DNA of 64,000 nt from Desulfobacteraceae bacterium (GTDB taxonomy: Bacteria > Desulfobacterota > Desulfobacteria > Desulfobacterales > Desulfosalsimonadaceae). The notes under the pieces are model-generated. The model saw only the letters and a list, made by a program, of their open reading frames with translations. It did not search any database and was not told the DNA's origin. The stretch covers positions 1-64,000 of the forward strand of contig JABZFM010000009.1 in assembly GCA_014237465.1 (NCBI GenBank), in the 5' to 3' direction. The position numbers and the translations under genes are program-made. Of this stretch, positions 49,677 to 51,169 are shown one piece after another (position 1 is the first letter of the stretch; every line of letters begins with the position of its first letter).

Positions 49677-50471
49677 ATGAACCGTTTGAAAAATTTATTT
49701 GAAACATTAAAAAAAAATAATGACAGGGCGCTGGTCGGGTTTGTCACTGCCGGTGATCCGAATATCGACACATCGCTTAAAATCATTTCCGCCATGTGTG
49801 AAAATGGAATGGATATCCTTGAACTCGGCGTGCCTTTTTCCGATCCGTCCGCAGACGGTCCGGTCATTCAGCGGTCATCGTCACGAGCCTTAGAACATAA
49901 TGTGTCGCTGAAAACCGTCATGGAAATGATTCGTGAAATTAGAAAAATCACATCCATTCCGATTATTATTTTCAGTTACTACAACCCGATCATGGCTTAC
50001 GGAATTGAAAATTTTCAACCGGATGCCATTGAAGCCGGGGCCGACGGCCTCCTGGTGGTCGATCTGCCTTTGGAAGAATCGCCGGAACTGACGTCTGTCT
50101 GGAAAGACACTGACTTTTCCCTCATCAATCTGGTGGCTCCCACAACGCCGAAACAAAGAATGGCCAAAATCGCATCAGCGTCATCAGGTTTTTTATACCT
50201 GGTTTCCAAAACCGGTGTAACCGGCAGCGACGGACTCGATACGTCTGAAATCGCGTCTCAAATGAGCATCCTGCATTCCGTGACAGATCTTCCCGTGTGT
50301 GTGGGATTCGGCATTTCCACCACGGACGATGTGGCTGCGGTAGCATCCATGGCCGACGGTGTTGTCATCGGCAGTGCGTTTGAACGGTTAATCGAGGAAA
50401 ATATTGACAACCCGGAGCTGGTTTCCATCATCGGCCGGCGAACCGCTGAATATAAGGCCGCCACAAAATAA
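49677..50471 (+). CDS. trpA: Tryptophan synthase alpha chain
   Basis: A 264-residue TIM barrel. Catalytic Glu in LELGVPFSDPSADGPVIQ (about residue 50) and Asp in GADGLLVVDLP, plus the phosphate motifs GVTGSDGLDT-like and GFGISTTDDV, and VIGSAFERLI. It cleaves indole-3-glycerol phosphate to indole. It is the last trp gene; a nuclease-like gene follows 14 bp later in the same direction. Confidence 0.96.
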   Translation: MNRLKNLFETLKKNNDRALVGFVTAGDPNIDTSLKIISAMCENGMDILELGVPFSDPSADGPVIQRSSSRALEHNVSLKTVMEMIREIRKITSIPIIIFSYYNPIMAYGIENFQPDAIEAGADGLLVVDLPLEESPELTSVWKDTDFSLINLVAPTTPKQRMAKIASASSGFLYLVSKTGVTGSDGLDTSEIASQMSILHSVTDLPVCVGFGISTTDDVAAVASMADGVVIGSAFERLIEENIDNPELVSIIGRRTAEYKAATK

Positions 50472-50485
50472 AAGGGAAACAACAA

Positions 50486-51169
50486 ATGAAAATTAAATCG
50501 TCAAATTTCTTTTTTTACGCGCTAATCCTGTCAATTCTCTTTTGGAATACCGCCATCGCCAAAGAAGACACCAAATGCGATGAACAGACGTTTACCTTGT
50601 CCACCAAACAGATCATGGCGGATGTTGCCGAAACACCTGAGGTTTTTCCCAAATACACGACCCAGCTGATAAACCTGGCCAACCAGAATTCCCAAGCCAC
50701 CCGCCCATGTTACGTGGGGCAGATGTCGGAACTGATCCAGGAATTTCCCGGCAACTCCTATTCGCTATGGGTGCAGTGGTATATTGCAAAATATCCGGAT
50801 GCCATTGACCAGGCGACGGATAGGACCTACACCATGATCCGGAAAATGCAGCAGGCCATGGCGGAAATTGACAGGGATATGGTCAGGCAATGGGTGCAGG
50901 AACTGATTTTATCCAAAACATATGCCGGTCTTCGATTTCAGGAATCCATCTTAAAAGCCATCGCAGAAAAAAAAAGCACCACTTATCGGCTGGCACGACC
51001 GGAGGAGGAGTCTAAGGGGATTGACGGATTCATCGGCATGAAACCGGTTTCCATCAAACCCGTATCATATCAGTCAAAAACTTTCTTGACGGAAACAATC
51101 GATGCAACAATTATTTATTATGAAAAAGTAAGGGGTGGAATTAAGGTTTTTTACGGATCATGTTTTTAA
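50486..51169 (+). CDS. MjaI-family restriction endonuclease-like protein with signal peptide
   Basis: A 227-residue protein. The body (about 50-227) matches what I know of the MjaI type II endonuclease family (CTAG specificity in the prototype): FPKYTTQLINLANQN, TRPCYVGQMSELIQEFPG, DAIDQATDRTY, then GIDGFIGMKPVSIKP. D180 and S189-I-K191 form a D-x(8)-(S)xK active site. Residues 1-25 look like a Sec signal peptide (two Lys, hydrophobic core FFFYALILSILFW, cleavage after AIA). No modification methylase is present in the window. It shares the trp transcript by position. Export of such a nuclease is unexpected. Confidence 0.6.
   Translation: MKIKSSNFFFYALILSILFWNTAIAKEDTKCDEQTFTLSTKQIMADVAETPEVFPKYTTQLINLANQNSQATRPCYVGQMSELIQEFPGNSYSLWVQWYIAKYPDAIDQATDRTYTMIRKMQQAMAEIDRDMVRQWVQELILSKTYAGLRFQESILKAIAEKKSTTYRLARPEEESKGIDGFIGMKPVSIKPVSYQSKTFLTETIDATIIYYEKVRGGIKVFYGSCF

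Follow-up and report, generated by a model that had tools for sequence, protein, structure and literature searches.

The window, by which we mean the whole stretch of 64,000 nucleotides of Desulfobacteraceae DNA that was analysed, carries directly behind trpA a gene for an MjaI-type endonuclease that begins with a predicted signal peptide. The features of this locus are the following.

49677..50471, plus strand: trpA, an open reading frame directly upstream of the nuclease gene and on the same strand.
50472..50477, plus strand: AAGGGA, a probable ribosome binding site 5' of the signal-peptide start, from reading of the sequence.
50486..51169, plus strand: gene of a putatively exported MjaI-type endonuclease (PF09568, 206.7 bits; PADLOC REase_II, 211 bits), 227 amino acids, stop codon included in the coordinates.
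50486..50560, plus strand: predicted signal peptide, residues 1-25, cut by rule between AIA and K; the same type is found in 17/17 rows of its clade.
50561..51166, plus strand: predicted mature nuclease, residues 26-227 (profile match at residues 59-221; pLDDT of the whole-chain model 87.9).
51005..51058, plus strand: active-site block E174-E175 ... D180 ... S189-x-K191, from an alignment of 80 rows.

The nuclease gene starts with an ATG 14 bases past the trpA stop codon, so that its place behind trpA, as given in the preliminary description, is correct. Its product resembles MjaI over the whole PF09568 (RE_MjaI) profile, matching positions 1-164 of 164 with 206.7 bits (E-value 2.5e-61; curated cut-off 22.7 bits), and it also matches the PADLOC type II REase model (E-value 4.2e-63), which bears out the MjaI-type assignment first made from the letters of the sequence. 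A search of the ORF against the NCBIfam profiles gave none above cut-off. In a whole-genome profile search, this gene was the sole PF09568 match of the 5.09-Mb genome. MjaI itself has been produced from its cloned gene and characterised (PMC4752239), and no paper was found in the open literature for the Pfam name RE_MjaI. The AlphaFold2 model of the chain, which is a confident one, was compared by Foldseek with solved structures, and none was retrieved at E <= 0.001; the best E-value was 1.0, the second match was a restriction endonuclease (3ndh, E 1.2, TM ~0.2) and nothing was convincing. Solved relatives sought by sequence were likewise not credible (best E-values 0.61 and 0.36).

Residues E175, D180, S189 and K191 are invariant in the 80 aligned rows (17/17 signal-bearing and 63/63 others), and E174 is present in 78 of them (17/17 and 61/63, respectively); the D180...S189-x-K191 site noticed at the outset is thus kept in every row. 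The dN/dS ratio of the mature part is ~0.13 with L043, ~0.18 with L044 and ~0.10 with L045, several other pairs having yielded no value and the signal region having yielded one from 1/7 pairs only. In the same analysis, trpA gave ~0.05-0.07. As judged from these comparisons, the nuclease is under purifying selection with its catalytic residues intact, and the enzyme looks alive. Two divergent MjaI relatives without signal peptide, L191 in G580 (44% identity) and L192 in G496 (40%), have an arginine at the position of the catalytic lysine and are perhaps inactive.

The predicted signal peptide reads MKIKSSNFFFYALILSILFWNTAIA, with the cut directly before KED, and its best 11-residue hydropathy is 2.59. 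The call is based on hydropathy, charge, a cleavage-site rule and conservation. The best 11-residue hydropathy ranges from 1.95 to 3.66 in the 17 signal-bearing rows and is at most 1.40 in the 62 scored relatives without signal. All 17 rows combine a hydrophobic core with at least one cleavage candidate, and 15 of them have a positive charge up to the core, which L052 and L053 lack with the start chosen for them. The N-terminal stretch before the conserved core comprises 46-65 residues in the signal-bearing rows vs 20-33 in the others. Within the bacterial family, the N-terminus consists of a hydrophobic stretch and an AxA-like site in all 13 carriers of the nuclease, our genome included, and this start is mostly preceded by a purine-rich stretch. 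It is therefore unlikely that translation begins only after the hydrophobic segment, an objection that had been raised against the Sec-type signal peptide, and a misplaced start codon was ruled out since the type of N-terminus is kept across the clade. By these rule-based features the N-terminus of the nuclease is of the export type, a trait conserved throughout one clade, and the protein is probably exported and cleaved. It could also be that the hydrophobic N-terminus is no export signal in practice, and that the enzyme stays in the cytoplasm as half of an ordinary restriction-modification system with unlinked genes. The genome does contain a methylase of the right family (see below), but the signal-type N-termini and cleavage candidates in 17/17 rows and the length of the stretch before the core argue against this reading, which we regard as distinctly improbable.

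A scan of the GTDB contigs found 276 relatives, and the best 80 of these 276 were analysed. Among these best 80, a signal-type N-terminus was found in 15 (L042-L056) and was not seen in the other 65, a few frames of which are cut or misread. The titles of the 15 name Desulfobacteraceae, Desulfococcaceae, Desulfobacterales, Desulfonema and, once, 'Deltaproteobacteria', and several of the loci come from genomes that also belong to a sample of 36 from the bacterial family. In this sample, the nuclease is carried by 13/36 genomes, our own included (9/18 good genomes; 8/11 in the genus), and the other 12 carriers have nucleases 54-80% identical to that of the window. In a sample across the phylum, PF09568 was matched in 22/297 genomes. 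One relative, L015 in G068, lies in an unusually long frame of 297 amino acids with extra sequence N-terminal to the nuclease part.

We then built a tree of 80 proteins, namely those of 78 of the best-80 loci (L063 and L065 left out), the window and L033. The 17 signal-bearing rows form one clade (support 100/98) that was present in all 200 bootstrap trees, with one label change. A second tree, to which L190 and one clean piece of L063 (paired relatives of the same order) were added and from which 18 near-copies were removed, left this result unchanged. A common ancestry is shown, and we propose that an MjaI-family nuclease acquired a Sec signal peptide once. The clade is to be counted as one event, and the numbers of loci are numbers of related loci, not of independent events. 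Among viral contigs, nine short relatives (L122-L130) were found, none with a clear signal-type N-terminus, though in L128-L130 the region ahead of the likely start is partly hydrophobic. The frames of these nine overlap or abut a methylase-like frame with a weaker similarity (139-163 bits) to the partner-methylase profile described below.

The position behind trpA is shared by several members of the clade. We observed trpA upstream of the nuclease on the same strand in 10 loci (the window, L043-L048, L050, L051 and G319), a set including 8/15 of L042-L056, at distances from ~15 bases to ~1.4 kb (L047). In several of them ugd follows further downstream. Within the available DNA, L049 and L055 have ugd and no trpA, and L042, L052, L053, L054 and L056 have neither. 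The trpA position points to vertical inheritance of the nuclease in these 10 loci, for which a recent horizontal arrival was ruled out. It could be proposed that the gene is a bystander of the trp operon that does little at present and was kept by chance, as its absence from 23/36 family genomes might suggest. The low dN/dS, the site intact in 17/17 rows and the same place retained in 10 loci make this hardly credible. Just downstream of the exported-type nuclease, L043:8222-8956 encodes a protein with a Cro/C1-type HTH and a PilZ domain, with homologues in L045, L047, L049 and L050 and no match in the window.

The relatives without signal have a different neighbourhood. They are adjoined, at a median distance of 40 bases, by a DNA methylase with the motif TSPPY, and a partner-methylase profile was built from these methylases. 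With this profile, a methylase was detected at most 600 bases away in 59/65 signal-less loci; five of the six others end within ~720 bases at a contig end, and L065 has DNA on both sides. In contrast, the profile had no match in the window or in any signal-bearing locus, L042, L048 and L053 being short on one side. The preliminary description had stated that the nuclease has no partner methylase; this holds for the neighbourhood but not for the genome. Since the compartment is new and the linkage to a methylase was lost, one could suppose that the exported protein was exapted, losing its nuclease function for DNA binding or another role in the envelope. However, the catalytic residues are present in 17/17 rows, the mature part evolves at a dN/dS of 0.10-0.18, and conservation of the site is all-or-none, unlike in L191 and L192 where the lysine is replaced. 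We thus consider exaptation improbable.

A homologue of the partner methylases lies elsewhere in the same genome.

G000:C18:14671-15813: unlinked partner-family methylase (L131), 533.9 bits to the partner-methylase profile.

It is 60% identical to the partner methylase in L063 and 50% identical (178/355) to the methylase of plasmid pFZ1. A methylase elsewhere in the genome is what the preliminary description had set against its own reading, and its further suggestion that such a nuclease would not need host methylation is weakened, because a homologue of the MjaI/MthZI partner family is present in our genome and in 31/36 genomes of the family (16/18 good ones). The nuclease is not thereby an ordinary one; a self/non-self check becomes possible as a mechanism, and likelier than an unselective secreted nuclease. 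In the order, the unlinked methylase was found in 189/291 genomes (124/173 good ones). The synteny is well kept in the family, where a LOG-type gene lies beside 27/30 loci and a membrane-protein gene beside 26/30, both names being our own reading of the sequence. The order has an intact nuclease-methylase pair (L182/L190), a broken one (L063) and others in which only a fragment of the nuclease is left (L174/L193, L194), and the partnered methylases of L063 and L182 nest among the unlinked ones. L193 (G493) and L194 (G385) are short MjaI fragments adjoining a methylase, an apparent loss of the nuclease that leaves the methylase alone.

Does this methylase go together with the exported-type nuclease? 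In the family, it was found in 11/13 nuclease carriers, and the assemblies of the two misses, G325 and G303, also have no LOG gene, which makes an assembly gap likely. Across the order, it was found in 11/13 carriers of the exported-type nuclease vs 178/278 other genomes (Fisher p 0.15), one of the 11, G364, having a weak match (2.9e-44). The association is not significant, and the statistics do not separate a pair split between compartments from a nuclease that is protected by its compartment only. G383 has the nuclease and no methylase was found in this genome, which is 80% complete; a different gene follows its LOG gene, presumably one resembling an apolipoprotein N-acyltransferase. As most methylase-bearing genomes have no nuclease, the methylase must either do something else or be without use.

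These data bear on the chief rival explanation, in which an active nuclease is exported and cellular DNA is protected only by the nuclease being outside the cytoplasm, while the unlinked methylase serves another purpose. The enzyme could then turn over DNA in the periplasm or in biofilms, or defend against DNA in transit. The absence of a linked methylase from all signal-bearing loci fits this explanation, and so do G383, the order-wide p of 0.15 and the frequency of the methylase in genomes without nuclease. However, the methylase belongs to the very partner family of this nuclease, it accompanies the nuclease in the family with two misses that lack the LOG neighbour as well, and CTAG, the probable target, is rare in this DNA, which would make a CTAG cutter a poor feeding nuclease. 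We therefore hold protection by compartment only to be rather unlikely, although it is the alternative to be taken most seriously.

The target site was deduced from the best-known relatives. Over residues 54-214, the window nuclease shares 54.9% identity with the MjaI-family REase of plasmid pFZ1, which has the same active-site block. The pFZ1 record names an 'MjaI family restriction endonuclease' and a 'site-specific DNA-methyltransferase', which we take to be the CTAG-specific MthZI system of Methanothermobacter. This fits the title of a 1992 paper by Nolling and de Vos, according to which MthZI reportedly recognises CTAG and its methylase is plasmid-encoded. Unlike in the window, the nuclease and methylase genes of pFZ1 lie side by side in convergent orientation, and the REase lacks a signal peptide. 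M.MthZI is described as an experimentally characterised 4mC CTAG methylase (PMC5867850). From this family likeness, we infer that the window nuclease and the unlinked methylase probably both recognise CTAG. This tetranucleotide occurs 9 times in the 64 kb of the window vs 27.2 expected. In small samples of each genome, its observed/expected ratio is 0.26 in our genome's own DNA (84 kb), 0.16 in signal-bearing relatives (130 kb), 0.24 in methylase-only genomes (198 kb) and 0.31 where neither gene was found (111 kb). The depletion is similar with and without the genes, and CTAG avoidance is thus uninformative as a footprint of the system. With so rare a site the enzyme would make few cuts, and it would serve to keep out long foreign DNA rather than to feed the cell. 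If the site is indeed CTAG, bulk degradation of outside DNA, one of the uses first imagined for the enzyme, becomes less likely.

Altogether, we consider it about an even chance that the gene encodes a type II enzyme of the CTAG (MjaI/MthZI) kind that gained a Sec signal once, is separated by the membrane from a cytoplasmic methylase and is vertically inherited. In this reading, the nuclease would have lost its linkage to the methylase and become a vertically inherited chromosomal gene, which in most carriers follows the trp operon. Once mature, the enzyme would act in the periplasm or outside, and the partner-family methylase would remain in the cytoplasm and mark the genome at the same site. 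DNA of the cell and its kin, released or taken up, would be spared, and unmarked foreign double-stranded DNA would be cut before reaching the cytoplasm. The nuclease activity, its blocking by methylation and the biological role are putative. Slightly more tentatively, the two proteins may form a restriction-modification system with the inner membrane between its halves, in which the widely conserved cytoplasmic CTAG-type methylase would write a self mark and the exported endonuclease would read it in the periplasm or outside, before uptake. The genome has a ComEC-type gene, which makes DNA uptake possible; such a gene is likewise found in 10/14 control genomes.

Restriction enzymes are taken to act in the cytoplasm, together with a methylase encoded by a linked gene. 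A signal-bearing clade whose partner-family methylase is encoded at a distant place of the genome fits neither this location nor this linkage. If true, the proposed arrangement would show a toxic gene tamed by a move to another compartment. No restriction enzyme bearing an export signal of its own was found among open-access papers. EndA, staphylococcal Nuc and YokF are not restriction enzymes and are not known to be sequence-specific. They are exported DNA-cutting enzymes like the proposed nuclease. In H. pylori cultures, restriction enzymes were reported to accumulate outside the cells (PMC3145789).

A precedent for the reading of marks on outside DNA comes from Haloferax volcanii, in which such DNA is likewise reported to be distinguished by methylation (PMC3929857). 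The gene implicated there is another nuclease, a putative thermonuclease-type lipoprotein, and the cells used conspecific or unmethylated DNA (PMC3929857), so that the pattern is not just the one to be expected from our proposal. Haloarchaea also have orphan CTAG methyltransferases (HVO_0794, cHG U) of the M.MthZI/M.MjaI family that, as in our case, are widely conserved and have no linked REase (PMC5867850, PMC6471742). In H. volcanii, the authors report that they found no cognate REase (PMC5867850), whereas here a family-matched REase with an export signal is present. The role of CTAG methylation in Haloarchaea is called an open question (PMC6471742). If true, the proposed arrangement would explain what one lineage of CTAG methylases without linked nuclease is for, and the purpose of conserved unlinked CTAG methylases becomes testable in bacteria. 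Apart from the nuclease, the wide conservation of the unlinked MthZI/MjaI partner-family methylase, with its synteny kept in the family, makes it a candidate Dam-like mark.
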